Shown here: positions 12,090 through 43,440 of the stretch, piece after piece | How the letters are laid out: the number at the start of each line of letters is the position of its first letter | Position numbering within the stretch: the first letter of the stretch is position 1 | Assembly (NCBI GenBank): GCA_951799425.1 | Contig: OX637395.1 | Location: 5,044,451 to 5,108,450 of the forward strand | Origin: Ilex aquifolium | Lineage: Eukaryota > Streptophyta > Magnoliopsida > Aquifoliales > Aquifoliaceae | Direction: 5' to 3' | Length of the DNA stretch: 64,000 bases | Translations under genes and position numbers: made by a program | The notes under the pieces: generated by a model | What the model was told of the DNA's origin: nothing | Seen by the model: only the letters and a program-made list of their open reading frames with translations | The model's database searches: none

Positions 12090-12980
12090 TAAATAAGAGG
12101 AGAGAGAGAGAGAAAGAGAGAGAGATGAAAGCTCTCTACTCCTTCCTCCTGTATTTAATCACGATGGAATCTTAATGTACGAAGATTTTCTTCAACAAAT
12201 ACAATCTCGTCTTCTTCTTTGTTATATTAATTAGTTTATGGCTAGCCGTGACACACATGGGGGACATATCATACGTGGGTCTGTCTGACCAGCCATATTG
12301 AATATATATATTTTATTAGAGGAATATTGAATTTTGTCAGAAGAATAATTTAGAATTATATAAAACTTTTGTAGGTTAATGCATGACAGTACAATCTCCT
12401 TTGCATGAGTAAGCACATTGTAAACTAGTGGTTTCGACATTTGATGCTAAACAACATGATTATAAGCATAATATTGTAATCATGAGTCTAAATAACATGT
12501 GGTTGAGATTAGGATTGTTGAATGATTCGTACAATTCGAGCTCGGCTCGATTGGATTGTTTAAGCTCTCGTTTAAATATTAAATGAATTGAATCTAATCA
12601 AATTTATAATTTCTTCTTATAAATGAACCGAATCTAAACAACATGAGGCTTGGATCAAATAGACTTGAATCGCTTGGAACAAGTTCCTATCCATGAATAA
12701 TTAATTTGGATTTTATTGCACAACACCTATTCAAAAGTTGATTAACCCCAACTCATACGAAATATGAACAACCTCTCAGATAGGGTTTAATTTTGTGGTT
12801 TATTGAATACTATTTTTTGAAAATTTTTATTAAGAAATCAATTATTTTAGGATTCATTATTGACTTCTAGGGTTTGATTTGAAAATATTTTGCTTGGAAA
12901 TTAGATTTTACACAAAAATTTCTACCGATCCACACTAAAACAACAATCTAAACTCGATAATGAACTCCAAATCGAGCTCA
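12090..12980 (+). repeat. Conserved ERF-upstream non-coding block, copy A
   Basis: A GA-rich tract is followed by CTACTCCTTCCTCCTGTATT, then GGAATCTTAATGTACG, GACACACATGGGGGACAT and CTGACCAGCCATA. The same order occurs at 20.63 kb (plus), 39.30-39.86 kb (minus) and 42.56-43.42 kb (minus). Each copy lies upstream of an ERF gene and in its orientation, here about 1.6-2.5 kb before the ERF at 14.56 kb. No conserved reading frame is seen, so it may be a promoter-proximal or transcribed non-coding segment, or an old transposon carried along by duplication. Confidence 0.6.
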
Positions 12981-13214
12981 AACTTGTCTTATAGCAACCG
13001 AATTGAGCGAAAGCATATTCAAGATCAGTAAACTTTTTCTGACTAATGCCCTTAGTCGGGATGATGGTTCATTAGTGAAGAAAAATAGCAAAGTTCAAAA
13101 TCTTCCAAAGACATGGAAAACTATGGTCCTACTATAGAGGAAAAGTGGCTACTAAATTGTCAAACATAGTTGCTCGAGGTGATTATTAACATAAACTAGG
13201 GATGCTAACGAGTT

Positions 13215-13964
13215 TTAATGGGTTTGTTTGAGCGAGAAGTCGATTTATCTAGAGTAAAAGACACAGGATATAAGTGGTTCACCTTAGTCGATGGACTAAG
13301 GCTACGTCCACTACAATGGAGTCTCTTACTCCTTGAGGTCGTGTATTGATTTCAGGTGAGTATTCGCTCCTTACAAGCACTGGACCTTCACAAATGTATA
13401 TGTCTTGTCCTCTTGAATATCTGGGAATAGACCAGACAATGGGGGAGGCGAAGACGGTGATTCTCAGAGGAAGTCTTTCATATCCCACCCAGCTACTTTG
13501 TACTGTTTTATTTATACGGGTCATTCGTCATAGGGTTCCTTGGTGGCTCCTCCTGTTTTTTTCCTGATCTTGTGGGGACCTTCAGTCCTTGTCCTACAAA
13601 AGCTTGCACTAGCCGGCGCCCCTGTGCCCACGATCTCTGGATTGTCACGCACCACTTTTTCCTGCCTTCGGAGAGGCGTAGTTGTCTTAGGTTTCAGAGA
13701 TGGTCCACTTGTCCCCTTAGACACGTGGTGCGACGGGATCCTTTCCAGGACAAGGGGGTGACTTCTTGTTCCCAGATTGTCCTTTGACCGCTACTGGATT
13801 GGACCGGGTCTGGGCTGCTGGTCTTCCGGAGCAGTTGGGCTTGATCTTTATCGTGGGCTAATTGGAGGCAATTCCTTTGGGCTAATAAGCCCATCTTCTG
13901 GGTTCTCGAGGTATATTGGGTTCCGATCCCATGACGGCCCATGCCCAGAATTCCACCCTTATCA
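13215..13964 (-). mobile_element. Probable LTR remnant, minus orientation
   Basis: On the minus strand the segment starts TGATAAGGGTGGAATTC. It is much richer in G+C than its surroundings and contains GACTAAGGTGAACCAC near its far end, a phrase familiar from plant Gypsy-type LTRs. Several short ORFs here overlap on both strands without protein similarity that I recognise. No clean target-site duplication was found, so the left boundary is approximate. Confidence 0.4.
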
Positions 13965-14049
13965 ATTAGTGTTGTGGAAGCTTGTTAGTGTGTGTAGTTA
14001 TAAGGTAAAATTAGTAAGAATTCTTTCTTTTTCTACATATTGAAAACCC

Positions 14050-14238
14050 ATTAAATAAATTTAGACGTCTTAATTTCAAATCTTGATAATTTCTTAGGGG
14101 AAAGACATAAGAGAGTTATCCCTAATGAATCTTTTAGTTCTGACATAAATGACATGTCTTTGATTGAACTATTAAAGAATTAGTCAAAATGTGCGTAAAT
14201 AACACAAAAATTGTCGCTGGTGAAAGAAAGAAAAAAAC
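14050..14238 (+). mobile_element. tRNA-derived SINE copy b
   Basis: The family body is recognisable: GACGTCTTAATTTC, AGTTATCCCTAATGAAT, GACATGTCTTTGATTGAAC, AGTCAAAATGTGCGTAAAT, then an A-rich tail. It sits about 300 bp upstream of the first ERF gene. Confidence 0.6.
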
Positions 14239-14316
14239 GCATAAAGTACGGTCAAATTTCTATCAAGCACGTCAAGTCTTACTTTTCTTCGTTATAATTT
14301 ATAATTACAACAGAAC

Positions 14317-14322
14317 CACGTG
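14317..14322 (+). promoter_or_regulatory. G-box of ERF gene 1
   Basis: CACGTG within ACCACGTGTTTT, about 240 bp upstream of the start codon. All four ERF genes here carry the same hexamer 180-275 bp upstream of their start codons. G-boxes are bound by bHLH (MYC2) and bZIP factors in plants. Confidence 0.6.
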
Positions 14323-14405
14323 TTTTATTTTTCTGATTATAATAACACCAAATGATTAAATTCCAAATCCGTTTCTTTTGGAGGATACAGATTAAAACAT
14401 ATAAA

Positions 14406-14502
14406 CCAATGACTACTGAAACTTCAAGGAAACTAATTCAAGAAGACCACCTGAGAAGTGAGCGCATGAAAGCTCATATATATATATACATATATATAGA
14501 AC
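14406..14502 (+). promoter_or_regulatory. Conserved ERF promoter block and TATA box, gene 1
   Basis: CCAATGAC, GAAACTTCAAGGAAA and AATTCAAGAAGA are repeated almost unchanged upstream of the other three ERF genes. They are followed by a TATATATATA tract at 14477-14501, which would place transcription start near 14530. Conservation across four diverged promoters suggests function or recent duplication. Confidence 0.6.
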
Positions 14503-14557
14503 CTCTCAAGTCTCACCTCATTAGGTTTCATCAGTACCCACAAACTCTGATTCAGAG

Positions 14558-15202
14558 ATGAACACAGAAACCATTTCTCAATCTGACTTCGCCGTTCTTG
14601 AATCCATAAGAGACCATCTTCTCAATGATTCTGAGTTTTCCGATGATTTTTCGACGTCAAGTTCAAGCAATACTGCACCGGTTGATGACCCAATTTCAAC
14701 ATTTAGCAGTGAACTTTTATCTGGGAGTTGGGTAGAAAAAGAAATGCAGTTTAATGTGAATCATTCCCCGGAAACGGTAGAAGAGTTGGAAGTGGCGAGT
14801 TCCAGTCACGCGCCACCACAATGGACGAGGTATAGAGGCGTGAGGCGGCGGCCTTGGGGAACGTTTGCAGCGGAGATAAGGAGTCCGGCGACGAAAGGGG
14901 CGAGAGTATGGCTTGGGACGTACGAGACGCCTGAGGATGCTGCATTGGCTTATGATCGAGCAGCTTTTAAACTGCGTGGCTCTCGGGCTTTGCTTAATTT
15001 TCCACATCTGATCGGAGGCAAGATGTCGGAGCCAGTGAAGGTGGCGCCACGGCGGCGGTCACCGGAGTCTCCGTCGTGTTTGCCATCGTCGGAAAGTGGA
15101 GCGAAGAGGAGGAAGAAGGTGGTTGATAGTTCAGTGGAGGTGTCACAAATGAGCACATTTACACCTGAGGGTCCATTTTTGCTAGATTGCTGGTGGAATT
15201 GA
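14558..15202 (+). CDS. AP2/ERF transcription factor, group IX-like (ERF gene 1)
   Basis: Predicted nuclear DNA-binding factor for GCC-box-type elements; group IX ERFs (ERF1/ERF2/ERF13, ORCA types) act in jasmonate, ethylene and defence responses. Intronless, 214 residues. The N-terminus has the group-type [12 protein letters not shown] helix (11-22) and an acidic/serine stretch (23-60). The single AP2 domain covers about 92-149 ([10 protein letters not shown]...RALLNFPHL), with the WLG and [11 protein letters not shown] elements intact. Thr102 replaces the usual Lys in [10 protein letters not shown] basic KRRKK near 183-187 may serve as nuclear signal. It ends CWWN, a tail shared with two of the three paralogues, but lacks about ten residues found before that tail in the others. 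The start at MNTETI is below the TATA box and is conserved in all four copies. Confidence 0.92.
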
Positions 15203-15619
15203 TGGATTTTCAGTTCTTAGATGGTGTTCTCCAACTTCGAAGGAAGGAGAAAGAAAACCCTAAAATTTATGTTGTGTCAGTGACTCTTTGAAACCTTAAA
15301 ATTTAAAATTTATGTTGTTTCTGGATATGCATTGAGGAATGTTAGTTAAACTTAATTTGTTAATTTGATTTATTTATTTAATTATTCTTTGTTATTGGAT
15401 GAACAGTGGACTCTATTAGACTCACAATCGATTCAATGGGTGCATTATATCAACAAATAAGATTAATAAATTATGTTTAAATAATATTTTTTTTATAATT
15501 TTTTCGTGAAAGAAAAATTAGAGAAAATAAACGGATCCCTAATAGTATTAAAATATATATGTATTTAAAAAAATGTTATGGTGCAGCAGTAGATGTTGAG
15601 AACTAGATAAGATTTCTGG

Positions 15620-15860
15620 TTTTTTGGTTCAACTGTCAAAGTTGTCTGGGTCAACTTATACGCACATTAACAAATTTTTCTCCCTGATTCGGTCAAATAC
15701 AGGTCAACCACGCCGGGATTAAGATATCTATAAGGGATAAATTCCTCATGGTATTGTCCCAAGGGGTTGTCAAAATTCAAACTTAAGATATTTAGGTTTA
15801 CTACTCATATTACCACTTGAGCTAACCTTTGGGATGAAGATTTCATCAAGTTGAATCCAA
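15620..15860 (-). mobile_element. tRNA-derived SINE copy c
   Basis: In reverse complement it shows the family order: B-box-like AAGTTTGAATTTTG, then TTATCCCTTATAGATAT and GACCTGTATTTGACCG, then the tail-side ACCCAGACAACTTTGACAGTTG. The stretch 15203-15619 is the 3' flank of ERF gene 1, with nothing else seen. Confidence 0.6.
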
Positions 15861-17615: not shown

Positions 17616-17629
17616 CTAGATTGCTCTAA

Positions 17630-19410: not shown

Positions 19411-19429
19411 TTTTTTTTAAATATAAGTT

Positions 19430-20419: not shown

Positions 20420-20630
20420 AATTAAAAAGTTTATTGTACTGAGTTGTAAATCCAGACGTCTTGAGTTTGAATGTTAACAATTCTTTGGGGTCAGGCCATA
20501 AAGAATTTATCCCTCGTGAATATTTTAGTCCCTATATTAATGATCTGTCTTTAATTGAATTGAAGAAAAAATTAGTTAAAGTGCTCATAAATTGACGTGA
20601 ACACCTTGATCGTTAAAAAAAAAAGGGAAG
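20420..20630 (+). mobile_element. tRNA-derived SINE copy d
   Basis: B-box-like TTGAGTTTGAATG, body TTTATCCCTCGTGAATATTTTAG, then GTCTTTAATTGAATTGAAG, GAACACCTTGATCGTT and an A10 tail. This is one of the better preserved copies of the family in the window. Confidence 0.7.
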
Positions 20631-20850
20631 GCTCTCTACTCCTTCCTGTTGTTATTCTGGTTCCTGATCATCTCCGAGAAAGCACCATACCCTCTTTCTT
20701 CTGTGTTATCTTAGCTTCTGGGTAGCCGTGACACACCTGGGGTGGTGGGTTGGGGGGGAGGGGAGAGAGAGAACGACGACGACATGTAGACATGGGTCTG
20801 ACTAGTCATAACAGGTATTTTACTCGTGGAATAGTGAATTTTAGTCAAAA
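20630..20850 (+). repeat. Conserved ERF-upstream non-coding block, copy B
   Basis: GGCTCTCTACTCCTTCCTG, then GGGTAGCCGTGACACACC, then CATGGGTCTGACTAGTCATA, follow the order of copy A. It precedes the plus-strand ERF at 32.80 kb, now about 12 kb away because repeats have accumulated between them. Confidence 0.5.
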
Positions 20851-22580
20851 AAAAATAATTCCGAGTAAAAGAAGTCTGTCGTACCAAAAAAAAAAAAAAT
20901 CTATTCTTGTACAAACATTTATAAATGTTGTCGATTTGTTTTACAGGTTTTGGGAGTCATTTATAATTTTTAAGGATCATTTATAAATTTTACTTTATTT
21001 TGGTACCATCATTTATAAATTTTGAAGATTTTTTTCTTATTAATTTTAAGTCATTTACAATTGTTGGCAATTATATACAAATTTTGAGGATTATTTATAG
21101 TTTTTGTGATTGCTTGCAATCAATCCTGATTTCGATCGCAAGTAATCCCAAAAGTTATAAATGATTCCCAAAAAATTATAAACAGAACTATAAAAGTTGT
21201 ATATAAAACTCCAAAAATTACAAATTTTATTTGCCGTAAATAAACCTAAAAACTTGTATCCTAACTCACAAAATGTATAAATTTTGATATGAATAACTCA
21301 TGATTAAAACGTTTTTTTTTAGAACAAAAAAGTTTCTTGAGTGTTGTGCCCAATCCCCTCGGGTTGTGAGGATATGCCTTAGACCAGATCTGTATCATCT
21401 ATTTTGAATGCACAAATGTTATCCAATATTAAAGTTTGAAAATTAAAATTTTAACTTATAAAAGTATAATAATGGTCAAGATTAATTCAAATTATCATTT
21501 ACTTTAATCCAATGGTACAAAATTCATCTTTAAAAAAAAAATCGCTCAAAAACATCATATTCTCTTTACGACTTTCAATGTTAGATAACTCAACCAACAC
21601 ACACTTCAATATCAAACAATCTCGTTAATTCTCACATACATCTATCTGTCATATCTCTCTCTTATTTTTTCTATGTTTAAATATAAATATTATATGATCA
21701 ATGTTCAATTTTTAATGTTTTAAAATATATTCAAAAACAGAATTATTGCTAGTCTTTCAATATGTGAAAGATATAGTTACCCAATATCACAAGTTGTGAT
21801 CGTTTAGACAAGATAATTTTATTTCTTTAAGTATACATTTGAAGTATTTTGGCATGTCTTGAACTATATTGTATATCCAAATTTTTTTAAAGTAATATTT
21901 TTATTTATCTAAAAAAAATAAAGTTTTTTTTATGAACACAAATAAAAAAAAAATTCATGATTTACTGACTAATATTACATATTTAAAATTCACATTATAA
22001 CCACGAGTGCAAGTGATACGTATTGGTTGTGGTTTTAAAACAACAAAAAAATTATGTAAATATTTATTTTTGCAGGTAATTGCATACATTGAAAACTTTT
22101 ATTATAATCACGAGTTCAAAAAATGTCTAACTAAGGTAATTCTTAGAGCGACCAAATCTTGTGTATGCTATAGTTGAGGATTGTACATATCTAAAATTTA
22201 CCTTTCTTTTCACGAGTTTAAAAGATGTATAATTTAAAAGACACAAATTCAAATTAAGAGTGTTAATTTGTGTCAGAATGATTTATTTATCAATAACATC
22301 AATTTTAAAATTGTATCACGTCAAATTTGTATCGTTCACATCAAAATAATATACTATTCAAAATATGACAGACGCGATACGAATGACACCCATAAATTGA
22401 ACTTATTTATTCATGTGAGAATGACACTCCTAATATTCCAAATGATGCACTATTCGAGATGGGGTTGTAAGTACAACAAGTATAACGTGCATTCTTTAGT
22501 AGGTGAATGTACACATCCCAAACGCGAGAAATTTTTGGTTGGTTAGACCGAGAGGGAGAATTAGTAGTCCGAATAACACG
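20850..22580. other. AT-rich intergenic DNA
   Basis: No gene is seen. The stretch 20930-21300 has repeated TCATTTATAAATTTT words and can fold back weakly. Short ORFs (for example 22268-22546) show no family features. Confidence 0.5.
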
Positions 22581-22584
22581 TGTA

Positions 22585-22890
22585 TAGTAGGGTTAATAAT
22601 TGAATCGAACTATTCAAATTCTATTTGAATAGGACTTAACTCGAATTTGGCTCGTGTTCTAAACGAGCCGAGTTTGAAAAAAATTTTAGGCTTGTTTATA
22701 AAACGAGTCTAAAACACTCGGCTCCAGCTCGCAAAACTCGATTCGTTTATATGTAAAATAGTCGAGTTACTCGGACTCGACTCGTTTTGGACTCAACTCA
22801 GGGCTTGGCTCATTTCTAAATAAGTCAAGTTTAAATAATTTTTTAAGTTTATTTAAAAAAACGAGTTCAACAGAGTCGACTCAATTATTA
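22585..22890. mobile_element. Probable hAT-type MITE (CGAGCCGAG family)
   Basis: It starts AGGGTTAATAATTGAATCG and has CTCGAATTTGGCTCG, AACGAGCCGAG and TCGAGTTACTCG words typical of this non-coding family. Related copies are at 39.67 and 49.82 kb. The right boundary is approximate. Confidence 0.5.
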
Positions 22891-23885
22891 GGCATATTCA
22901 TCGGTGAAAAAAGCACAACAAAGTCTAAAATATATCTAATATTATAAAAGTAAAATAATGATTATTGGTCCAATTTTATCTACTAAGATTCAATAGTACA
23001 AAATTCAATTCCATTTTTTTTTTCCGCTTACCCCAATGTCAAACAATTAAACCAACACATTCTTCAAGTAAGTTCAATTTTCTCATTAAGTGTACATATC
23101 ACATGACACTGTTACGTAGAGTGTTAAATTTATTGAAAATTTTCTCCATTAATTTACACTTATCTCTCTTTTTTGTACTATTCAAAATACTAGTTAGTAC
23201 ATACGTGCGTTGCACGTGAACTATTTTGAGATAAAAAAATAAATAATACCAAATAACCAAAGGAAAATGAAATTCATGTTTTACATGAATTGGTTCTTTG
23301 GATAGATGAGGAAGGGTCAAGGGTTAGACCAACAACGCCAACTAGATACTAGGATCTACATACTAGGATCATCAAAAATCAATAGCACACAAAATTTGTG
23401 ATTTTCACTTATGGTAAGTTTATCACATACTCCAACAACATCCGTGTCCCCTCGTTGATACAAGTTTAAATAATGAAATAATAGATATTATTAGAGAAAA
23501 GAAAATCGATGCTTCGAATTAACCAGCAAAAACTAAGCATCACTATATTTTTTTGACACGGAGATGTATACAAGCTGAGTTTTGTAAATTTTTCACTATA
23601 TTTCTTATCCAGTGATCATTATCAGATTGTATTTTTCATAATTATGTTGAACATAAGAAAAGAGAAAGTTCAATTTTTTATTTTTTTTGTGAAAAGAAAA
23701 TTCCCTTACCTCACATAAGGAATAGGAACAAAGAAATGCAAATGATAAAAATGCGAGTTTTTTCACAATAAATATTCGTTTGCATTGCTTTTTTTTTTTT
23801 TTTCCAATTTTTTCCCTATAATGAAGGAGACAGCTTTGCTTGGTTAGGCCCAATAGGGCTTGCACAATTAACATGATGGAAAAAA
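22891..23885. other. AT-rich intergenic DNA, no gene seen
   Basis: Short ORFs on both strands (for example 23605-23874 minus) are low-complexity and without recognisable motifs. Confidence 0.5.
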
Positions 23886-23889
23886 ACTT

Positions 23890-24440
23890 GTGATAGTCTG
23901 ATAGATATAAAAGTGGAAATCGTGTCGTTTTGGATTCGTATTGAATATTAGTTAATTTAAATCTAACCCATTTAATTAAACGTGTTATGTCCTGTCGACT
24001 TATTTATTTTTGTATCGTATTTGTGTTGACTCATATAACCAGTGAATAAAAAAAAATTTAACACTCAATTTTATATCTAAAAATTTCTTATCACTTAATC
24101 GAATTTATATTCATACTTTTTCTATAAATTAAAAATTAACTTAATAAATATAATAATAATAATGAGTAAAAAATATCTTTTTTGTACAAGAATTAGGTCA
24201 CTACGTGCTAAAATATAATAAAACATTAGCATTTTATTTTTATAATACTACTTAAACTTGTTAATCATATCAATTTCGTATTGTTCGTATTTGACACTAA
24301 CCAAACTCATTTATTATTCGTGTTAACGGATCGTGTCATTTATGAATTCGAGTCGAGAAATGGTCAACCCTAACCCAATAATTTAATATCGATTTTGAGT
24401 AATATTTTCGTGTTGTGTTAGAAATTACCACCCCTAAATA
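23890..24440. mobile_element. Probable hAT-type MITE (CGTGTCG family)
   Basis: GGAAATCGTGTCGTTTTGG near the left end and GTAATTTCTAACAC near the right (in reverse complement), with GGATCGTGTCATTTATG between, match the style of plant TIR elements that end AGGGGTGGTAATTTC. There is no transposase and no clear duplication, so the limits are approximate. Confidence 0.4.
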
Positions 24441-24734
24441 GATACAATAATACACCACCAAAATTGAAAGTTTATCTTCGTAGCTTGATTTGGTATAGAG
24501 TACTCTAATGGGCAAACTCAAATATCTAGTCAATTTTTTTAAAAAATTCTCTTATTGTCCCCAAACTCTTTTTTTTTTTTTTGTCATTCAAATCATGATA
24601 TTTGATAAAATATCATAAACTTTCATATATCTCCACAAATGGGTAATTTAAAAAAAAATGAATATTTATAAAACACTACATGGGAATAAAGAAAACTACT
24701 CTAAAATTCTAAGATTGCTCTTATGGCTTATCAT

Positions 24735-26334
24735 TTTTTTATAAATTCAAATAAAAAAAAGAAAAAAAAATTAATTATTTTCATATGGACCTACTCTGAA
24801 TAATACAAAAATATACGTTTTTAAAATAGAATATTGAAAAAATAAAATGATGAATTTTTTAAATTTGTGGGTAGTAAAAGCTTAAAATTTCAAGAAGAAT
24901 CAGTGACTTGAAAATTGTACTACCGATAGTGTTTAACTCGAAAAAATCAAAAAAAAAATTAATGCGTAGGCTTAAGGTTTATATCGTATGAAAGATTAGT
25001 AAAATTAGAGTTTTAAAAAATAAAAGAAATCAAGAAGATGGGAGATGAAAAAGAAAAAACTTACCTACAGGTCTTCAAATGATTATGTAAAAGTTTTGGT
25101 GATAGTCGGCGATGGAAGCAATGTAGTAAAGAGAGGCAAGAAGAGGCGGAAAACAAATCATCAAAAAAAAATTTTAATTTTTGATAAAATAAAAAGTTAT
25201 TATTAGAAATTTTGATATAGAATTTGAGTTTTTTTTTTAATTTAGGTCCAGAATAAATTTTGTTTTAATTTGATATAGGTTTGAGTTTAAGGTTAGAGAA
25301 ATTTTTTGAATTATTTTAATTCAAATTTAAATTTAAATCTATATTTAAGTGGAGGTTAAAAATTCTCTGACATGCGAAAGTAATGTTGTAAATCTACATA
25401 AAAGAGTTGCCTCGGACACATTGATGTCTGACTAAAATCATGTGCCTCGCATGATTCAAACATTATTGAGGGCAGCAAGGGTAGGAAAATGGAAAACATA
25501 TCAATAAACAGTCGATGAATTCTAGAATTTCACCAATGTGAACAGAACATGACATGACAGTCTCCTGTCCCTTCCAAAAGGGGGTAAGTATCAAACTTTC
25601 TTGTCATTCGTAAAAAATAAAATGATAAATTTGAAATAAGAAATGACTGGATACCAAAGAAATAATTTTCGTACTGTATTTCTAATTTTAATTATTTTAA
25701 TGAATATTTTATAATTTTTGTGAATTATTTTATAATTAAAAATTTTATCACTTTTATGAATAATTTATTATTTTTGTAGGTGTTTTTACCACTGTTGTTG
25801 ATGTTTTTACTACATTTATGATAATTATTTTTATCAATTTTTTTATATAAAAAATTTATCATATTTATTGATGTTTTTATTACATTTATGAGGATTTTTA
25901 TTACAATATTTATGAGTGTTTTACCACCATTATTATCAAGAACAAAACCAGCTTAACTACTTTTTAAGTAGTTTTTCAAAAAATTCACACCCCCAAAGTT
26001 CTAAGGTCTACTTAAGGCCACATGAATCAGAATCATTCGCTTTGGTTCCCTTTTAGGTGGTTAGTTTAGTTTAGGTGCTTTTTTTTTTTTTGTTACAAGT
26101 TGTTCAAGTTTAAACGGACAACTCATGTAAATTTGTGGAGGCTGGATCACTACATAAATTCGTCGAGGACCACGTTTTACTGACCTTGTTATAGGCTTAA
26201 AAAGCAGTCAAACTTTTCAACTTTGAAAAAAAAAACATTTAATATATGGTCTTCTTTTTTTTGTAGGATTTATTTTGTTCATAATCAGACATTTTTTAAT
26301 CATATAAATCTAGTAATAAGGCCAAAAATTGGCG
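24735..26334. repeat. Long direct duplication, copy 1
   Basis: Shared landmarks with copy 2 (27.74-29.19 kb) run in the same order: ATTTGTGGGTAGTAAAA, TACCGATAGTGTTTAACTCG, AACTTACCTACAG, GAGAGGCAAGAAG, AGAGTTGCCTC, CATGACATGACAG, CCAAAAGGGGGTAAGTATC, GACCACGTTTTACTGACC and AAGGCCAAAAATTGG. Copy 1 carries extra sequence near 25.97-26.15 kb. No coding frame is conserved between the copies. Confidence 0.8.
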
Positions 26335-27736: not shown

Positions 27737-27742
27737 ATTGGT

Positions 27743-29190: not shown

Positions 29191-29299
29191 TATAAAACAG
29201 ATAAATGATGAAAGAGTGTTTAGCCTTGGAGTAATGCTATCAAGACTTCGAAAACTTTTCAAATTTTCTGACTTAATGATGTGAGAAATAATTTTATAT

Positions 29300-29600
29300 G
29301 TAAGGATTGTTTATGATATAGGAATGTGTAGCAATGAGGTCGTGATTGGGGCTGATGCCGGTGCTGGAAAAGGTTTTCTATACGGCCAAAGGAATGCGAC
29401 TGGTGTAGCCACAGACTCCTCTTGGACTGCAGCAATTCCAAACTCACACCATTGTTCTCTCCATCATGGGTTTCCTGTTCATGTTTTTGCAAATCATCTT
29501 CATCCTAAGAAACCGTTACGTCCAAAGACTCTAAACCACTCTCGATCTTCCTTTTATCGAATTTACGGTTCACATATCTATATTATTCATCATTGATTCA
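29300..29600. other. Unassigned sequence island of higher GC
   Basis: Base composition differs from the flanks and there are open frames on both strands (plus 29324-29596; minus 29492-29259). Neither shows a domain or signal that I recognise. It could be a fragment of a gene or of a non-coding RNA. Confidence 0.25.
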
Positions 29601-29835
29601 AGTCACAAACAAAAAAATATGATTCATATATACAAGATCACACACGCACACAAACACGTTTATCTGAAATTAAAGGGTACCTAGATGTCTTCAAGTTGAG
29701 ACTGTAATGGTGCATTTGGGCAATTTCCCATCAGATCCATTACCTATGCAACCAGTGAGGTAACTTGTTGTATGTCTTCTATATGCAAATCTCCGAAATC
29801 CCCTCCATGGGGCATATTAACACTGGTCATTATTT

Positions 29836-29945
29836 TTTATTTTTTATTTTTTTGAGGGGAAGGGAAGGGGAAGGGATTTGAACCCTTAACCTCAAGAAGA
29901 CAAAGTCTTCATAAAGTAAACAGTACCATTAGACCAAAGGGCCGT
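29836..29945 (-). mobile_element. tRNA-like SINE flanked by a long target-site duplication
   Basis: On the minus strand it reads GGTCTAATGGTA (A box), then GGGTTCAAATCCC (B box), then an A-rich tail. It is bounded by a direct repeat of about 20 bp that includes ATTAACACTGGTCATTAT, at 29816-29835 and again at about 29950-29969. Both are hallmarks of a tRNA-derived SINE moved by LINE machinery. It belongs to a different family from the SINE copies a-g. Bases 29970-30308 are empty. Confidence 0.8.
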
Positions 29946-30308
29946 TAATATATTAACACTGGTCATTATGGTGGCGATTAAAGGATCAAAAATGAGGGAG
30001 TGAGATCCCCTCCAATATATTTCTCTTCAATTCCCTTCTTAACACTTCATTTATCATACATTCAAGTGAAACCATTATATTTAAGTGGGTCCTATTGGAA
30101 AAAATGATTTTAAATAAATTTATTTGATCAACTTAAGGTTTAAATAAAAATGGAACCCATACCTCGAAATTGGTGAGACCGATTTTAAACGCGCTCGCCT
30201 TCGCAAGAAGATGAACGTCGTATATTTATTTGTTTAAAACTATTAAGTATTGAATGAGAAATTATGTCTCAAAGTGATACATTTGAAGTGATGAAATAAA
30301 TTAAGATT

Positions 30309-31160
30309 GATGTAGTGGAATAAAGGTTGTCCCACATTGGAAGAAGACTAACACTTTGATGAGTTAATATACTCCTAGTTAGCTTCATGGGGTTGGACCC
30401 CAAGGGGTATCACACTTTTGTAAACAGAGCAAGCACATGCACTACCTTTGTTACCACATGCGTGCTTCCCGTCCCGACCGGACTTGGACTTGGGTCAAAA
30501 ATATATAATTTATTTGGAACGGGTTATGAATCCAACCAATCGGATCCGAATGCGGCTTGTAATTAAATTCTCAATCGAAATTTTAAATTTTTTGCCCATT
30601 ACTTTGAATTTGGCACCAAAATTAGGTCTGGTTCATTCTAGAGGGTTTGTTCACTCCAGAGGTATCTTTTGTCTGTTCAGATTAAAAAAGCGTGTCTATT
30701 CAATCCAAACATTGACATTCCATGCCTTGAGTCTATAAATAGACTGCCTTCAAGTCATTTTCATCTATCTCAATTCTGAATTAAGTATTCAGAGTTTCTT
30801 CTCTCTCTCTGCATATCTCTGTAGTCTTAAAGATTAAAGTGTTGCTTCTTCAAGAACGAAATCCGTTCTATTTTGGGGACAGTTGTTTATCAACCTTAAG
30901 CACCGAGAGGAAGCAAATCTGTCTTAAAGAAACTATGATTACACTGGGTTCAAATTATTATTATTTTTTGATTTTTTAAATTTTATTCGTGCAATTTTGC
31001 TCCACTATAAGTACATTACTGTTTCTATTTTAACATTTTATTTTTATTAAATTAGTTCACATATAACAGTATACTTAGTGATTTAGATTTTAATACAGTA
31101 ATTAGTGATTAAATCTAATTATATACATACTTTGAATAACAGGTCCGACACTCATCAATA
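30309..31160 (+). mobile_element. Possible solo LTR
   Basis: TGATG at the left and CATCA at the right could be LTR ends. Between them lie a TATA-type box (CTATAAATAGACTGCC, about 30736) and a downstream CT-rich leader like that of a retrotransposon R/U5 region. No matching 5-bp duplication was found, so this stays tentative. The ORF at 30448-30738 has no recognisable domain. The stretch 31161-32060 holds no gene. Confidence 0.35.
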
Positions 31161-32060
31161 ATGAGTGTCTCACTGAACAATAGTGGATGATATGCCAAAA
31201 AATGAATTGAACCACAAATGTATTAGAGAAGATCTAGATTAAAAAAAAAAGTAATTATCGACAAAATCTAGGGAAGGATTATGCATGAAAGTGACATAAT
31301 AGCTCTTCCCCGATCTTGTGGTAGTGTTTTATTTATTTTGCATGAAAGTGGCATAATAGCCCTTTCAATAGCAAAAAATTAAAAAAAAAAAGACATAATA
31401 GCCCTTTTAACTATTATCCTCGCCGGCTTAACCCCAGCTATGAGATAAAATTACCAGTAAGTCTTTTTTTTATTATTATTAAAAACCTTAAATTGCAAAC
31501 AATTTTTTATCGGGACAACTAAGCCTCACTTTTTATCAAATTTCACAAAATTACTAATTTTTATTAGCATTTTTTTCGACCTTTCGATTCTTAATAGGAA
31601 AGTACCATTGCTATCAATCAAATTGACTTTCTAAACAAATTATTAGAGAAAAATAAAGGTTGATTACCTCTCCCAGACTCTTTGGATGATCACTTAATTA
31701 CCTGTCTCAAATTCTTTCCAATAAGGGTAAAATTGTCAATTCACATACTTCTCCCAAATCCCAATATAAACAGGATTTGAGTTTGATCTATGAGAAATAT
31801 TATTTATACTTAAAAAATTGACATGATTTATTAATTTGATGAATCACAACCATTGAATAGGTCGTGAATCCCAATAATTGTTGAGACCCACATTTAAATC
31901 AATGACAGTGATTGATCAAGTCAGTTTTTCAAGTCTGTGTAGCATTACTCTTGATCTATTATTGTATGTACGAGTGAAATTTTTGCAATGCAATTGAAAT
32001 TGTAGTATAATTACATCAAATGAGAATCTCACTAAGCACTCTAAATGATTTAAATTTTTT

Positions 32061-32290
32061 TATTTTGTACCTTCAAAGATTAAATTTTTTATATTTCACC
32101 CTCAATATATTAAAAGTGTTATAATATAACCCTTTCATTAATTTCCGTTTCTTATTCCGTTAAAAATCACTCTTATTAACCTTGATAGAACGAATAATGA
32201 AAATGAACAGAAATGTCACATTGTAACTCTTTTAATGTATCGGGGTACAATATAAAAAATTTAATCTTTAATGATATAAAGTACAATACA
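32061..32290. mobile_element. Short foldback MITE
   Basis: The left arm TTGTACCTTCAAAGATTAAA is matched in reverse by the right arm (ATTTAATCTTTAATGATATAAAG). The central part has TTTCCGTT / AACAGAAAT-type symmetry. It has no coding capacity and lies about 500 bp upstream of ERF gene 2. Confidence 0.65.
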
Positions 32291-32526
32291 CCCTTAGTTC
32301 AAATACAAATTAATTTTGCCCTAATTCTACTTGTTAGGCGTGGAAGCCATACCATCAAACAAAACATGGTTGTTGATCATCAATAAATTGGCCGTTGTCA
32401 CCATCTTAATATAATATATTAACATGATCTATTTTAAATCACTATTGTATTCAAGAAACAGGAATATAAACTAATTATATTCAATTAAAAAAAATTTAAA
32501 AAAAAAAACTTTTGAAGTAATAGTAT

Positions 32527-32563
32527 CACGTGTTTTTGTTATTGCATGCAATAATACCACGTG
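32527..32563 (+). promoter_or_regulatory. Two G-boxes of ERF gene 2
   Basis: CACGTG occurs at 32527-32532 and 32558-32563, the second within ACCACGTGATTAAATT. The doubled motif lies 240-275 bp upstream of the chosen start. Confidence 0.6.
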
Positions 32564-32619
32564 ATTAAATTACATTTACATACCCTTTTCTTTTGCAGAA
32601 TACTGATTAAAAAATACAA

Positions 32620-32713
32620 GCACGAAACTTCATAGAAAGCCATTCAAGAAGATCAACCACCTGAAGAGTGCATGAAAGCTCAGATCCTCACAACACTATA
32701 TATATATATATAC
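32620..32713 (+). promoter_or_regulatory. Conserved ERF promoter block and TATA box, gene 2
   Basis: GAAACTTCATAGAAAG and ATTCAAGAAGAT match the promoter block of the other three genes. They are followed by CTATATATATATATATA at about 32696-32712. The TATA tract directly abuts the ATG at 32715, so that ATG would fall before the expected transcription start. Confidence 0.6.
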
Positions 32714-32801
32714 CATGAACTCTTGCTTTAATCTCTCACCAGTGACCCAAATCCTCAAGATCATAAGTTTTAAGAAGTACCCACAAAACCCTGATTCAGA
32801 A

Positions 32802-33476
32802 ATGAACACTGAAACCATTTCTGAATCTGACTTCGCCGTTCTTGAATCAATAAAGCAACATCTTCTCAATGATTACGAACTTTCCGATGATTTTTCGACG
32901 ACAAGTTCAAGCAATACTGCACCGGTTGATGACCCGATTTCAAGATTTAGCAGTGAACTTTTATCTGGGAGTTGGGTAGTAGAAGAAATGCAGCTTAATG
33001 TGGATCATTCCAAAGAAACGGTGAAAGAGTTGGTGGTAGCGCGTGGCGATCACGCGCCACCGCAATGGAGGAAGTATAGAGGCGTGAGGCGGCGACTATG
33101 GGGAAAGTTTGCTGCGGAGATAAGGAATCCGGCGAAGAAAGGAGCGAGAGTGTGGCTTGGGACGTACGAGACGCCTGAGGATGCTGCATTGGCTTATGAC
33201 CAAGCAGCTTTTAAGCTGCGCGGCTCTCGAGCTTTGCTTAATTTTCCACTTCTGATCGGAGAAAAGATGTCGGAGCCGGCGAGGGTGGCGCCACGGAGGC
33301 GGTTACCGAAGTCTCCGTCGGGTTTGTCGTCGTCGGAAAGTGGGAAGGAGAGGAGGAAGACGGTGGTTGGCTTGGCGGAGAAAGCGGAGTTGGAGAGAGA
33401 GAGTTCAGTGGAGGTGTCTCACATGGGCACATTGCCACCTGAGTATCCATTTTTACGTGACTGTTGGTGGAATTGA
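32802..33476 (+). CDS. AP2/ERF transcription factor, group IX-like (ERF gene 2)
   Basis: Paralogue of the 14.56-kb gene with the same expected role as a nuclear GCC-box-type regulator. Intronless, 224 residues from the conserved MNTETI start. The frame is open further up to an ATG at 32715, but that codon abuts the TATA box, so the internal Met is preferred. [12 protein letters not shown] occupies 11-22 and the AP2 domain about 92-149. Leu99 replaces the nearly invariant Pro of RRPWG between base-contacting Arg and Trp residues, which might alter binding. The AP2 domain otherwise has normal [16 protein letters not shown] and AYDQAA elements. The tail keeps GLAEKAELE and ends CWWN. It is convergent with ERF gene 3. 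Confidence 0.92.
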
Positions 33477-36974: not shown

Positions 36975-37649
36975 TCAATTCCACCAACAGTCTATCAAAG
37001 ATGGATCTTCAGGTGTAAATACACCCATTTCTGACACCTCCATTGAACTATCACTCTCCAACTCCACTTTCTCCGCCAACCCAACTACCTTTTTCCTCCT
37101 CTTTTCTCCACTTTCCGGCGACGATAAACAGGACGGAGACTCCGTTGACCGCCGCCGTGGTGTCACCTTCACTGGCTCCGACATCTTGACTCCGATCAGA
37201 TGTGGAAAATTAATCAAAGCCCGCGAGCCACGCAGTTTAAAAGCTGCTCGGTCATAAGCCAATGCAGCATCCTCAGGCGTCGCATACGTCCCAAGCCACA
37301 CTCTCGCACCTTTCTTCACCGGACTCCTTATCTCCGCCGAAAACGTTCCCCAAGGTCGCCGCCTCACGCCTCTATACCTCGTCCATTGCGGTGGCGCGTG
37401 AGAGTGACGCGCCACCACCAATTCTTCTACCGTTTCTGGGGAATGATTCACATTAAACTGCATTTCTTTTTCTACCCAACTCCCAGATAAAAGTTCACTG
37501 CTAAATCTTGGAATCGGATCATCAACCGGTGCAGTATTGGATGAACTTGTCGTCGAAAAATCATCGGAAAACTCAGAATCATTGAGAAGATGGTCTCTTA
37601 TGGATTCAAGAACGGCGAAGTCAGATTGAGCAATGGTTTCTGTATTCAT
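36975..37649 (-). CDS. AP2/ERF transcription factor, group IX-like (ERF gene 3)
   Basis: Third paralogue, minus strand, intronless, 224 residues from the conserved MNTETI start at 37649. An ATG at 37727 is in frame but lies upstream of the TATA region, so it is not used here. The [12 protein letters not shown] helix is at 11-22 and the AP2 domain at about 92-149. It reads WGTFSAEIR where the family norm is WGKFAAEIR, sharing the Thr with ERF gene 1. The tail has [16 protein letters not shown] and ends CWWN. The N-terminal half is closest to ERF gene 1. Expected function: nuclear regulator of GCC-box-type promoters in stress or hormone responses, inferred from family. Confidence 0.92.
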
Positions 37650-37698
37650 CTCTGAATCAGAGTTTTGTGGGTACTGATGAAACCTAATGAGGTGAGAG

Positions 37699-37791
37699 GT
37701 TCTATAAATAACATATATATGATGCACTCACTTCTCAGGTGATCGGATCTTCTTGAATTACTTTCCATGAAGCTTCAGTGGTCATTGGTTA
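37699..37791 (-). promoter_or_regulatory. Conserved ERF promoter block and TATA box, gene 3
   Basis: On the minus strand CCAATGACCACTGAAGCTTC, ATGGAAAGTAATTCAAGAAG and CACCTGAGAAGTGAG match the ERF gene 1 promoter. They are followed by ATATATGTTATTTATAGAAC, which should serve as TATA box. Confidence 0.6.
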
Positions 37792-37829
37792 TGGAATTTA
37801 ATCATGTTATTAAAATCAGAAAAAGAAAA

Positions 37830-37835
37830 CACGTG
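37830..37835 (-). promoter_or_regulatory. G-box of ERF gene 3
   Basis: CACGTG within ACCACGTGTTTTC on the minus strand, about 180 bp upstream of the start. The context is the same as in ERF gene 1. Confidence 0.6.
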
Positions 37836-37859
37836 GTACTGCTGATTAATATTCAAATC

Positions 37860-38985: not shown

Positions 38986-38989
38986 TTTG

Positions 38990-39299: not shown

Positions 39300-39860
39300 T
39301 CACATGTGGGTGAGAGTGATTCCTTATCATTCTCTGATCAGCTCTGAGGCCATGCTCATAATCTTCTTGTTTAGTATCAAATGTGGACAAGCACAAGTGT
39401 ACAAAGTGCTTACTAATGCAAAGGAGATTTATATTGTCATGTATATTCAACCAAAGTTTTATATAGTTCTAAATTATTATTCTTCTGACAAAATTCAATA
39501 TCCCTCTAGTAAAATATTTCATATGGCTGGTCAGACCCATGTATGCTATGTCCCCCACCCCATGTGTGGTACAACTAACCAGAAATTAATTAATATAACA
39601 AAGAAGATCAAGACGAGATTGTATTTGCCGAAGAACATCTTATATTAAGATTCCAACGTGATTAAATATAAGTAGGGGTGATAATTGAGTTGAATTCAAG
39701 TCGAATTCAAGTCTAATTCAAGTCTAATTTACACATAAACGAGCTGACTCATTTGACTATTTACACATAAACGAGCCTAAAAAATATTTAAGTTTGGCTT
39801 GTTTAATAACCCTAAATACAAGTTGGAGTAGAGAGAGGCCTTCTCTCTCTAAAAATCCTT
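39300..39860 (-). repeat. Conserved ERF-upstream non-coding block, copy C
   Basis: On the minus strand it follows copy A for about 350 bp (ATCACGTTGGAATCTTAATA, ACAAATAC-type, CATGGGTCTGACCAGCCATA, TTGAATTTTGTCAGAAGAAT). It lies about 1.6 kb upstream of ERF gene 3 and in its orientation. A MITE (39673-39814) interrupts it. Confidence 0.65.
39673..39814. mobile_element. Short hAT-type MITE with 8-bp duplication
   Basis: It starts TAGGGGTGATAATTGAG and ends TAATAACCCTA. AATATAAG (39665-39672) and AATACAAG follow the 8-bp rule with one mismatch. It interrupts conserved block copy C, so it arrived after the block was duplicated. Confidence 0.75.
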
Positions 39861-39917
39861 TATATTAAACTTTGATATTGTCAAATTCGAATTATTATAC
39901 ATTTTTTATAGTAAACT

Positions 39918-40583
39918 TTAGTATTGTAAAAATGTATGCTCAGGTGGCAATGTGCCAATTTGAGACACCTCCGGTGAACTCTCTCTCTCCAACTCCGCTT
40001 TCTCCGCCAAGCCAACCACCGTCTTCCTCCTCTTCTTCCCACTTTCCGACGAGGACAAACCTGACGGAGACTCCGGTGACCGCCTCCGTGGCGTCACCCT
40101 CACCGGCTCCGACATCTTGGCTCCGATCAGATGTGGAAAATTAAGCAAAGCCCGGGACCCACGCAGTTTAAAAGCTGCTCGGTCATAAGCCAATGCAGCA
40201 TCCTCAGGCGTCTCGTACGTCCCAAGCCACACTCTCGCACCTTTCTTCGCCGGACTCCTTATCTCCGCCGCAAACTTCCCCCATGGTCGCCGCCTCACTC
40301 CTCTATACCTAGTCCATTGCGGTGGCGCGTGATTGCCACGCTCCACCACCAACTCTTCTACCGTTTCTTGGGAATGATGATTCACATTAAGCTGTATTTC
40401 TTCAAATACCCAACTCCCAGTTAAAAGTTCACTGCTAAATCTTGAAATTGGGTCATCAAATGGTGCAGTATTGCATGAACTTGCCGTCGGAAAATTATCG
40501 GAAAACTCAGAATCGTTGAGAAGATGGTCTCTTATGGATTCAAGAACGGCGAAGTCAGATTGAGAAATGGTTTCTGTGTTCAT
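39918..40583 (-). CDS. AP2/ERF transcription factor, group IX-like (ERF gene 4)
   Basis: Fourth paralogue, minus strand, intronless, 221 residues from the conserved MNTETI start at 40583. The upstream in-frame ATG at 40676 is only a few bases below the TATA tract and is not preferred. [12 protein letters not shown] lies at 11-22. The AP2 domain (about 93-150) is the most canonical of the four, with [12 protein letters not shown]. The tail has [17 protein letters not shown] but ends FLQY, so the CWWN tail kept by the three others is lost; sequence after the stop is unrelated to their 3' ends. Expected role as for the other copies. Confidence 0.92.
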
Positions 40584-40679
40584 CTCTGAATCAGAGTTTT
40601 GCGGGTACTGATGAAACCTGATGATCTTGAGGTTTTGAGTCACAGTCACTGATGAGAGATTAAAGGAAGAGTTCATGTG

Positions 40680-40748
40680 ATTCTATATATATAGTGATTA
40701 GTCTTCTTGAATTACTTTCCATGAAGTTTCATTGGTCATTGGTCATGG
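40680..40748 (-). promoter_or_regulatory. Conserved ERF promoter block and TATA box, gene 4
   Basis: CCAATGAAACTTCATGGAAA and GTAATTCAAGAAGAC on the minus strand, then CTATATATATAG at 40684-40695. Same order and spacing as in the other ERF promoters. Confidence 0.6.
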
Positions 40749-40810
40749 AGATGCTGTAATTTTTTAATGAGTATCCCCCAAAAGAAAATAGTATATATAT
40801 GGAATTTAAT

Positions 40811-40816
40811 CACGTG
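40811..40816 (-). promoter_or_regulatory. G-box of ERF gene 4
   Basis: CACGTG within ACCACGTGATTAAATTCC on the minus strand, matching the second G-box of ERF gene 2. A further ACGTT-type site lies about 40 bp upstream. Confidence 0.6.
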
Positions 40817-41008
40817 GTGGTATTACAATCAGAATTACAAAAGAGAAAAAAACGTGGTACTATTGCTTCAATAATTTTATAAAATTATTTGTTTATTAAT
40901 TAAACATAATTAGTTAATGTTCTTGATACTTGAAACGAATATTCATTTAATCTCAAAGGTAATTCAAGTGATAACCTGTAAACTTAGTCGTCCTGAATTT
41001 TAATCTTA

Positions 41009-41503
41009 CCAATTAGGGATGGCAGTCGACCGAGAAAAAATGGATATTCGTCCAAATTCATCACATTTGAATCGAGAGTGGACCATACGTATTGAACGGT
41101 GGGTTTATACAGGGATATCCGTATAAATCCGTATGAGGATGGAGACGAGAAAAGACTGAAACTCATCCCCGCCCCCGCCCCCTCCCCCGCCCCTCCTCGC
41201 TAAAACTATAATATATATAACAAAATAATTAAGTGAAACACACATTTATTATACATATTATTTTTGTAAGTTTTTATGCTTGATCAATTTGTTATATAAT
41301 GAGTTTTCATCCTTCTTGTAAATTCATTTGTAAGGTTTTATGAATTTTTTTATTTTTTTCTTAAAATTATAGAAATTAATTATTATGAGCGGGAACGGGG
41401 ATTAAAATTTCTCCCGCTAACTAGGGTGGACGAATATTTGTGAAACAGGCACGAGGATGGAGACTATTCCCCGCGCTGCCACCCCGATCCACCGCCATCT
41501 CTA
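41009..41503. mobile_element. TIR MITE of the AGGGATGGC family
   Basis: Ends AGGGATGGCAG and CCGCCATCTCT are inverted. The interior has the CCCCGCCCCCGCC and GAGCGGGAACGGGG words typical of this hAT-like plant family. The bases outside (TTACCAATT / ATTGGTAA) are themselves inverted, so the exact border is uncertain. No transposase. Confidence 0.65.
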
Positions 41504-41526
41504 TTGGTAATCTCTTGGGACGAGGC

Positions 41527-42037
41527 TGACGGGCCCGGCCCAGACCAGGCCCAGACTAGGCTCAGAATTACAAACTAGGCCCAGCTCAGAAATACAAGCC
41601 AACAAGAACCAAGCTCATCGCCTTGAAAAATCCAGTCTACTAGTGACGCACGTAAGATCTCCATCTTAAGAAGAGAATTAGGATTCGCATCGCAAACCTC
41701 AACTACCTTGTCCGTTACGCTAACATCACGGAGCCACCCACTCCCATCACAAAGGTGGCACCTTAATCAGGGCTCCCCGCGATGGAGCCTCTATCAAAGC
41801 CCGCTCTGGGACGCCATGAAGACTGTACTCCCTTATAAATTGTAAGTTCCACATATACATGAAAGGCATCACACACATCTCAACACACTATACCTCTCAA
41901 GTAAATAAGATTCTCTGACTACCGTCGTCATTCCCAGTGGAGCAGGTCATCCAGACCGAACCACCTAATCTTTGTGTTAAGCCCTCTTTATTTCATTCTT
42001 GATTAATTTTGCATAAACTCACTTTTGCGCACCATCA
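41527..42037 (+). mobile_element. Solo LTR (511 bp) with 5-bp duplication
   Basis: It begins TGACGGGCCCGG and ends GCGCACCATCA, with perfect flanks GAGGC (41522-41526 and 42038-42042). A TATA-like CTTATAAATTG lies at about 41832. No internal region remains. Confidence 0.8.
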
Positions 42038-42559
42038 GAGGCCATGAGTTATTTATCACTCATGAATACTCTAATTTCGACGTGAATGAACTGCTTTTAA
42101 CCAGACCGAATAGAGGATTAGCCAAATAGTGTAAGGTGGCCTGGCCTGGTCCGACCGTTGAACCCAAAAAAAAAAAAAAAGAATAGTGATTTGATATAGA
42201 CGATGTTTACATTTAAAAATGGTAACAAAGGCCCCAGGTATTGATGATCAATAGACTTATGGTTTGATAGTATGGTTTCCAATGCTTAAAAGTAAAATTA
42301 TAGCAAAATTAAATTGGGTTTGAATTAATTTGACTCTAATTTATTTAATACTACATGTAAAAAGTTGAATTCTTAATTTATAAAAGTACAACTACGGTCC
42401 AGATTGATCTAATATCTATTTTGTCCAATAGTATAAAATTCATTCTAAAATTATTTTTTCCGTTAAAACATATTATCTTTTTTCTGCACGGCCTGCGGTG
42501 TCAAACAACTCAACGAGCACACTATTCAATGTCAAATAACTCTATTAATCGACGTGTAT

Positions 42560-43308
42560 CTTTCTTTTTTCTCTCCCTTACCTCTCTCAATTGTGACAGG
42601 TTAATTTCGAGTTTAATCTAAACTTAATTATCGAACTTAGATTCTTGTTCAAGTTTGACTTGATTGAAACTTGCAAGCTAGGGAGCCAAAATCGAATTTA
42701 ATTTCCTAGGAAAAATATTATTAAATTAAACTATACTAGAAATTAATAATCAATACGAAAATAATTGATTTCTGAATAAAAATTCTCAAAATGTATAATC
42801 AACCATAAATTTAAACCCTATTCTAGAAGTAAGTCCTAGGTCATCCATCTTTCAAATAGGGGTAGTTAAGCAATAAAATTAGAATTATTTATAGATAGAA
42901 ACCTATTCGATCTAAGCCAAGCCTACTTAAGCACAGCCACACATTGACTAAGATTCAGCTCATTTACGAAAATAGCTTAGAAATTTGATCAAATTCAATT
43001 CATTCCTAATTTGAGCGGACTATAAACAATTCAATTGGACTGCACTCGAACCATACGAATCATTTATCCGTCCTAGTCTCGGCCACGCATTATTTAGACT
43101 CGTGATTACACTGTAAACCATGCATATAACTTTTTTTGTTCATGTATCAAATGTGGTCAACCACTGGTTTTCAAAATTATTCTTATAACCAAAATTTCAA
43201 TATTCCTCTACTAAAATATTTGTTATGGCTGGCCATACCCACGTCTGATATAACACAGAAGAAGACATTAAGATTCCAACGTGATAAAATACAGGAAGGA
43301 GGAGAGTG

Positions 43309-43367
<59 letters not shown>

Positions 43368-43440
43368 GTCAAAATAGAGAAAATAAAAAATATTCTTTAT
43401 ATTAAACTTTGATATTGTCAAATTTAATTATTACATAGTT
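42560..43440 (-). repeat. Conserved ERF-upstream non-coding block, copy D
   Basis: On the minus strand: a TATATATATA tract, a (GA)20 tract, CTCCTTCCTGTATTTTATCA, GTTGGAATCTTAATGTCTTC, GGCCAGCCATAAC and AGTAGAGGAATATTGAA. It keeps matching copy A beyond this (GAGTCTAAATAA, AATGATTCGTA), for about 0.9 kb in all. It lies 2-2.9 kb upstream of ERF gene 4 and in its orientation. The CT/AT microsatellite is at 43312-43367. Confidence 0.65.

Follow-up and report, generated by a model that had tools for sequence, protein, structure and literature searches.

Four clustered ERF genes on holly chromosome 5: evidence for a local duplication that carried upstream DNA along

In several asterids, alkaloids and further chemical defences are controlled by clusters of ERF genes of subgroup IXa (PMC10619512, PMC6528166). 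A window of 64,000 nucleotides from the holly Ilex aquifolium (C5:5044451-5108450; contig OX637395.1) contains four ERF genes, here called E1 to E4, and raises the question of how they arose and whether they were duplicated together with the non-coding DNA upstream of them. Our comparisons point to a real and probably young cluster of locally duplicated IXa ERFs, akin to the ORCA, NIC2 and JRE clusters.

All four genes, placed at 14.56 (+), 32.80 (+), 37.65 (-) and 40.58 kb (-) by a preliminary description made from the letters of the window, are open AP2/ERF frames with the common start MNTETI (14558 (+), 32802 (+), 37649 (-) and 40583 (-)). Each protein has a single AP2 domain of the ERF type, covered in one stretch by a Pfam PF00847 match over the cut-off. 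In a genome search with E3 (genome searches spanned 800,232,872 bases in 103 contigs), the best four matches were the cluster members themselves (E1 at 85%, E4 at 82% and E2 at 77%), and the first match outside the cluster, among the best 150 of 209 candidates, reached 56% over 125 residues. The other AP2 matches listed on C5 (best 150 of 213 candidates) lie at 2.24, 4.72, 7.28, 12.72 and 40.23 Mb, with another at 16.57 Mb, so that the cluster appears to be isolated. As in ORCA- and JRE-type systems, several homologous ERFs are clustered here by local duplication.

In a protein tree of 20 rows, E1–E4 form one clade (support 98/99) that groups with AtERF1 plus three genes of holly (85/84), and six IXc-like (EDLL-type) rows, including AtERF096, fall in a separate clade; the AtERF1 row occupies 25% of the columns. 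AtERF1 has been assigned to IXa, for which the motif CMIX-3 is named, CMIX-2 being the IXb motif (PMC7593309). Matches in PDB also back placement in group IX and subgroup IXa. The group-IX-like identity proposed earlier is thus borne out and narrows, with moderate support, to an AtERF1-like IXa placement. The stretch LNFPHLIG...EPVRV.PRRRSPE presumably resembles AtERF13, which belongs with ORCA, ERF189 and JRE4 to clade II of IXa. The closest paralogues in the same genome are at C1 57.73, C2 2.48 and C13 29.08 Mb (56, 53 and 53% identity; best 150 of 209 candidates), and those on C2 and C13 have an N-terminal SD.A.L.SI...LL stretch similar to that of the cluster. All three differ from the cluster: further ERF matches lie at most about 20 kb from them, their proteins do not end in DCWWN, and their domains retain P-W-G-K and D.

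We compared the upstream blocks, A to D for E1 to E4, pairwise and judged each pair against 20 dinucleotide shuffles, whose maxima were 32.6–38.3 bits. Blocks A, C and D share collinear pieces in the orientation of their own genes, well above the best shuffle: 129 bits for the best A–C match (pieces 12363-12469, 12152-12298 and 11996-12061 at 81–85%), 169 bits for A–D (pieces 12016-12095, 12127-12178 and 12418-12747) and 68 bits for C–D. Block B is a remnant of about 220 bases that exceeds the shuffles by just 8 to 16 bits (20627-20742 against A, 48.3 bits, shuffle maximum 35.4; 20781-20842 against C, 52.5, maximum 36.8; 20788-20842 against D, 46.8, maximum 38.3), and a genome search with it as query returned no match besides itself. 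A second A–B match (14056-14200 with 20447-20592, 91 bits) breaks the collinear order and recurs in the flanks. The homology of E2 to block D resumes at 32252, 11.4 kb from block B, and the DNA between contains high-copy repeats at 23.92–24.44 kb (5,794 first-look candidates) and 27.74–28.37 kb (2,339; best 40 scored in each case); the second of these repeats has been duplicated locally, with the duplicate beginning at 24.75 kb. Around a GC-rich insert in the same gap lie two high-copy repeat copies, 24751-26332 and 27761-29188, which are 83–95% alike. The claim that each gene has a matching block upstream in its own orientation therefore stands for E1, E3 and E4, where the evidence supports joint duplication of gene and upstream DNA; for E2 the block is a weak remnant at a distance and joint duplication is plausible.

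The unit is also visible where two copies meet. E4 and E3 lie head to tail, and the coding part of E4 matches E2 as far as about 39925, beyond which it reads as the beginning of block C, whose homology to block A reaches 39918-39930. By eye, the last two codons of E4 and its TAA (39920-39918) are block sequence, replacing the DCWWN end of E1–E3. This junction is a clear case of a gene taking its stop codon from the non-coding DNA of a neighbouring copy.

If the blocks were a mere dispersed repeat that had landed beside each gene, they would align to each other no better than to unlinked copies, and genome searches divide them on this point. A 951-base query from block A gave 22 matches. Apart from five short ones to a GA-rich stretch (query 113–157), those to its first 770 bases all lie on C5 in a span of about 75 kb, and eight matches to query positions 802–928 fall on other chromosomes at 74–79%. 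A block D query (1161 bases) gave 45 rows (best 40 of 68 candidates), 37 of them unlinked matches to 43020-42623 at 69–83%, and the identity of A and D across this part (12574-12980 in A) is 70%, within the range of the unlinked matches. The far left end of D (43635-43538, paired with 11794-11893) likewise has two unlinked matches, on C20 at 75% and on C1 at 90% over 49 bases. For 12574-12980 (A) and 43020-42623 (D) the dispersed-repeat explanation holds. About 0.6 kb (11980-12570) withstands the same comparison: it and the core of block C match only this locus, the five short GA-rich matches excepted, and in three units the order of the pieces relative to the gene is the same. A dispersed-repeat origin of 11980-12570 was accordingly rejected, the rival being refuted for the unique part of the block within the sensitivity of the searches, and for the blocks as a whole we regard it as highly improbable. 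The "kilobases" of upstream DNA in the preliminary description do not stand, since the locus-specific distal part amounts to only about 0.6 kb and the adjoining 12574-12980 (43020-42623 in D) is dispersed repeat. An Rfam scan of 10–46 kb gave four matches (E 0.11–0.46), all far under the gathering scores, and a known structured RNA in that interval was rejected.

Synonymous divergence (dS) was estimated by NG86 for the six gene pairs, with bootstrap intervals and with the last three codons of E4 dropped. It ranges from 0.165 to 0.256: E2–E4 0.165 (0.10–0.24), E1–E4 0.17, E1–E3 0.19 (0.11–0.27), E3–E4 0.20, E1–E2 0.23 and E2–E3 0.26. With dN/dS (omega) of 0.35–0.58 and bootstrap intervals below 1 in all six pairs (0.20–0.95), the four proteins are under purifying selection. 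The blocks were set against these values, as the preliminary description had proposed, by Kimura two-parameter distance (K2P). A–C (0.13–0.15), C–D (0.15–0.18) and one part of A–D (0.13–0.17 in 12016-12178) lie slightly under dS and inside its interval; the others are faster (A–D 0.36–0.43 in 12418-12747 and 11688-12013; B–C 0.23; A–B 0.39; B–D 0.26–0.33). Proximal promoters differ by 0.11 (E1–E3), 0.17 (E3–E4), 0.21 (E2–E4) and 0.24–0.30 (other pairs). Since they diverge at about the synonymous rate or faster, the blocks are passengers rather than clearly constrained elements, and block and core drift roughly as neutral DNA.

The core, 143 bases of block A, recurs over 60–140 bases at three places left of the window, at window-relative -30924..-30796 (+), -23039..-22894 (-) and -713..-564 (-). 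Each of these outside cores lies downstream of a 2-oxoglutarate dioxygenase gene in the same orientation, two of them at a distance of about 1 kb and the third at about 4–5 kb, and a genome search with E3 gave no ERF match near them. The dioxygenases form a DAO-type array, which with one fragment comprises 645-2267 (-) and copies at window-relative -56.0, -37.1 (+), -20.6 and -3.0 (-) kb; three of its members have the downstream core common to the ERF upstream blocks. Pfam recognises dioxygenase domains in the gene at 645-2267 (-), the two longest exons of which match the solved structures 6kwa (E 6e-31 and 5e-25) and 6kun, named DAO; the other copies are assigned by DNA likeness, and DAO is auxin-oxidising by the name of the nearest solved structure.

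Seven copies of the core thus lie within about 75 kb, and all five matches of the core search, which skipped very common words, are on C5. Such a distribution, with the core oriented as its neighbouring gene, might be read as a conserved enhancer carried into each ERF unit and shared with the DAO-like genes. Beside the core, in 12016-12178, A and D differ at 14% of positions, compared with 28% and 32.5% for the neighbouring pieces (Fisher p 0.0015 and 0.00006), although those pieces overlap repeat parts. We nevertheless find an enhancer highly improbable. Among the dioxygenase copies, labelled F, G and H, the core is no more conserved than its own flanks (differences of 5.6% versus 6.7/10.7% for G–H, 21% versus 12/24% for H–F and 18% versus 25/18% for G–F), so that a selected core was rejected. 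The core differs by 22% between A and D and lies 5' of the ERFs yet 3' of the dioxygenases, and the A–C block distance is near that of the E1–E3 proximal promoters and inside the dS interval. One ancestral dioxygenase-core-ERF unit is conceivable: the orientations agree, but the DNA flanking the core on either side is unlike in the two families.

As to the order of events, the genes run E1, E2, then E3 and E4 inverted, so that two pairs face each other. Site support for the split E1E3|E2E4 is 18:2:1 in the coding sequence and 10:1:1 in the promoter, and the split also fits the 5' segment common to E2 and E4 and the K-to-T change that E1 and E3 share. The rooted protein tree, however, places E4 with E1/E3, at a support of just 81/62, and the true sisterhood of E2 and E4 is therefore unsure. 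The first 85 coding bases of E4 (40583-40499 (-); E1 14558-14642 (+)) differ at one position from E1, three from E3 and twelve from E2 (p 0.0015 by the maximum chi-square test and 0.010 by the longest run). In the other three comparisons two p values are below 0.01 and the third is 0.079, all uncorrected for their number. These figures suggest gene conversion at the start of E4.

E3 and the IXa gene on C2 differ by an NG86 dS of 1.56, near saturation, against about 0.2 within the cluster, which suggests an old founder and a young amplification. In four further group IX pairs of holly, presumed to stem from the genome duplication, NG86 dS is 0.527–0.561 (YN00 0.37–0.57), and a Ks peak of about 0.3 has been published for Ilex latifolia (PMC9441949). 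The cluster duplications are likely younger than the holly genome duplication.

We consider it fairly likely, from these comparisons, that one old IXa ERF was duplicated locally into four, with the blocks as passengers, giving factors that are likely responsive to stress or jasmonate and have diverging domains. A single ancient IXa ERF on holly chromosome 5 would have been multiplied by tandem duplication and at least one inversion, most likely after the whole-genome duplication. The copied unit would have reached from about 2.3–3 kb upstream to about 70 bases beyond the stop codon, its upstream block a passenger composed partly of unique sequence and partly of an old dispersed repeat, and now drifting. 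The four products would most likely be GCC-box-type ERFs whose domains may have begun to diverge (P-to-L and D-to-N in E2; K-to-T in E1/E3), as in the periwinkle ORCA cluster. Several points weigh against this history. Because the matches of block B are weak and 11.4 kb separates it from the rest of the E2 unit, its assignment to E2 is presumptive. A single inverted duplication that took in E1 and E2 together would not yield the sister pairs E1–E3 and E2–E4 in their present order. The tree lends the IXa grouping no more than moderate support (85/84). Several distal pieces compared between sub-types have K2P of 0.26–0.43, above dS, which suggests coding gene conversion, uneven rates or imperfect alignment. 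Upper bounds of dS (0.24–0.37) partly overlap the published peak.

The window contains 13 CACGTG hexamers, five of them in the four ERF promoters, where every gene has at least one about 180–280 bases before its start. There are two G-box positions, the first kept by E1 and E3, the second by E4 and both by E2. The preliminary description had all four promoters retain an order of CACGTG and CCAATGA motifs; CACGTG is indeed present in all four, but the motifs are all exact in E1 and E4 only. E2 lacks CCAATGA and has AATTCAAGAAGA altered and CATTCAAGAAGA present, and E3 has GAAGCTTC in place of GAAACTTC. Of the parts of the unit, it is the proteins for which selection is demonstrated.

Table 1. 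Features of the ERF cluster, in window positions
Feature	Position	Strand	Basis	Remarks
E1 ERF gene	14558..15202	+	open frame list, Pfam	214 aa; AP2 domain residues 90-142
E2 ERF gene	32802..33476	+	open frame list, Pfam	224 aa from MNTETI; further in-frame ATG at 32715
E3 ERF gene	36975..37649	-	open frame list, Pfam	224 aa from MNTETI
E4 ERF gene	39918..40583	-	open frame list, Pfam	221 aa from MNTETI; further in-frame ATG at 40676; C-terminal DCWWN lost
E1 proximal promoter	14309..14557	+		CACGTG at 14317
E2 proximal promoter	32434..32801	+		CACGTG at 32527 and 32558; no CCAATGA
E3 proximal promoter	37650..37844	-		CACGTG at 37830
E4 proximal promoter	40584..40950	-		CACGTG at 40811 (second position, common to E2)
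Block A, locus-specific part	11980..12570	+	pairwise and genome searches	includes GA-rich stretch matching elsewhere
Core in block A	12195..12337	+	genome searches	143 bases
Block A, part in dispersed repeat family	12574..12980	+	genome searches	limits approximate
Block B	20627..20842	+	pairwise and genome search	weak remnant
DNA between block B and E2 promoter side	20843..32251	.	self-comparison, repeat searches
Block C	39352..39917	-	pairwise and genome searches	more collinear pieces at 38645-38577, 38217-38148, 37910-37859
Block D, locus-specific part	43020..43434	-	pairwise and genome search
Block D, part in dispersed repeat family	42623..43020	-	genome search
Unit junction, E4 coding into block C	39918..39926	-	by eye	2-base AC overlap

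Within the AP2 domain, 11 of 63 positions vary among E1–E4. In ORCA3, positions K101, P107, K110 and D117 are paralogue-specific, and K101R, P107L, K110R/T and D117N have been tested (PMC8186833); by our own mapping, based on the spacing 6-3-7, they correspond to AtERF1 R147, P153, K156 and D163. E2 has L153 and N163, where most holly ERFs examined have P and D, N163 occurring also in another holly ERF. T156 is found in E1 and E3, S163 in three of the four proteins and R147 in all. Pattern searches of the genome counted 35 cases of YRGVRxR-P-WG-K, E4 included, two of P-WG-T (E1 and E3) and one of L/F-WG-K (E2). The counterparts of three of the four ORCA-studied positions (P107, K110 and D117) are thus altered in holly. 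P-to-L, K-to-T and D-to-N are among the changes, and at two of the positions the pattern searches met the altered form nowhere else in the genome. P107L cut or abolished target activation by ORCA3, whereas the effects of K110T and D117N were less specific and left the low activity of ORCA6 unexplained (PMC8186833). Basic residues at domain position 12, which is K156 by our numbering, raise non-specific DNA affinity (PMC6528166). On these grounds E2 and E1/E3 are predicted to bind DNA differently from E4. ERF189-type factors, which prefer the P-box to the GCC-box, have K at domain position 6 (PMC6528166), where all four holly proteins have R by our inferred numbering.

The same changes might instead mark decay, with redundant, degenerating copies of which only one, or none, matters. 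E4 is truncated at the unit junction, E2 carries the P-to-L change that was damaging in ORCA3, E1 and E3 have lost a basic residue near DNA, and we judge the dN/dS of the cluster fairly high for a transcription factor. Set against this, all four frames are open over 214–224 codons at a dS of about 0.2, omega intervals lie below 1, although with upper bounds of 0.85–0.95 in three E4 pairs, and ORCA4, which naturally has the L form, raises alkaloids when overexpressed (PMC8186833, PMC6528166). We regard decay as possible but doubtful. Holly could also have evolved ORCA-like domain tuning independently, at the three shared positions and with P-to-L, K-to-T and D-to-N among the changes, splitting a holly-specific defence pathway among the paralogues; if so, tandem IXa clusters would repeatedly diversify through the same few residues. 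The chance of the three-of-four overlap with the ORCA positions is about 0.015 by position alone, for a comparison chosen after seeing the paper. The residues are a likeness, short of proof of convergence, and such tuning seems to us unlikely.

The cluster can be set beside known systems. ORCA2-6 of Catharanthus roseus, also IXa, form an ERF cluster of about 70 kb in two sub-clusters (PMC8186833), which the holly cluster resembles in kind; in holly, two pairs face each other with repeat insertions, and D163 is S in three of the four copies. The NIC2/ERF189 cluster of tobacco and the JRE4/GAME9 clusters of tomato and potato likewise consist of tandem homologous ERFs, and their members are not equivalent (PMC7295393, PMC10619512). 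In grapevine, the expanded VviERF6L clade comprises nearly consecutive group IX genes that are 81% alike, against 48.7% for their 3-kb upstream regions (PMC7350745), but it carries the IXb motif CMIX-2 (PMC7350745, PMC7593309), whereas the holly cluster groups with IXa. By analogy with such clusters, the holly ERFs may be under jasmonate control and may govern specialised metabolism, as the preliminary description supposed. Among the frames listed for 70 kb to the left and 50 kb to the right, read by eye without a family scan, we found the DAO-type array only and no pathway cluster.

The titles and abstract starts listed for Ilex ERFs and jasmonate and for Ilex genomes showed nothing on this cluster, no word beginning with ERF occurs in the main text of the genome paper on Ilex latifolia or of that on yerba mate, and the publications listed for upstream blocks of ERF clusters included none on ERF clusters by title. 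The cluster provides candidate regulators of holly defence chemistry. Ilex has been placed sister to all other campanulids (PMC9441949), and holly adds another case, perhaps an independent one, in which to ask whether clusters of this type diversify through the same residues. Beyond the E4 junction and the candidate regulators, this is an ordinary local duplication.

Elsewhere in the window, a tandem array of short diverged units with many self-match offsets lies between E1 and block B (17626-19405), and 60113-60284 and 60576-60977 are imperfect palindromes matching their own reverse complement (60113-60977). Outside the window, a much larger ERF-type cluster, with at least fifteen AP2 matches over the cut-off in 0.61 Mb and one more with an in-frame stop, is found at C8:12106490-12712759.

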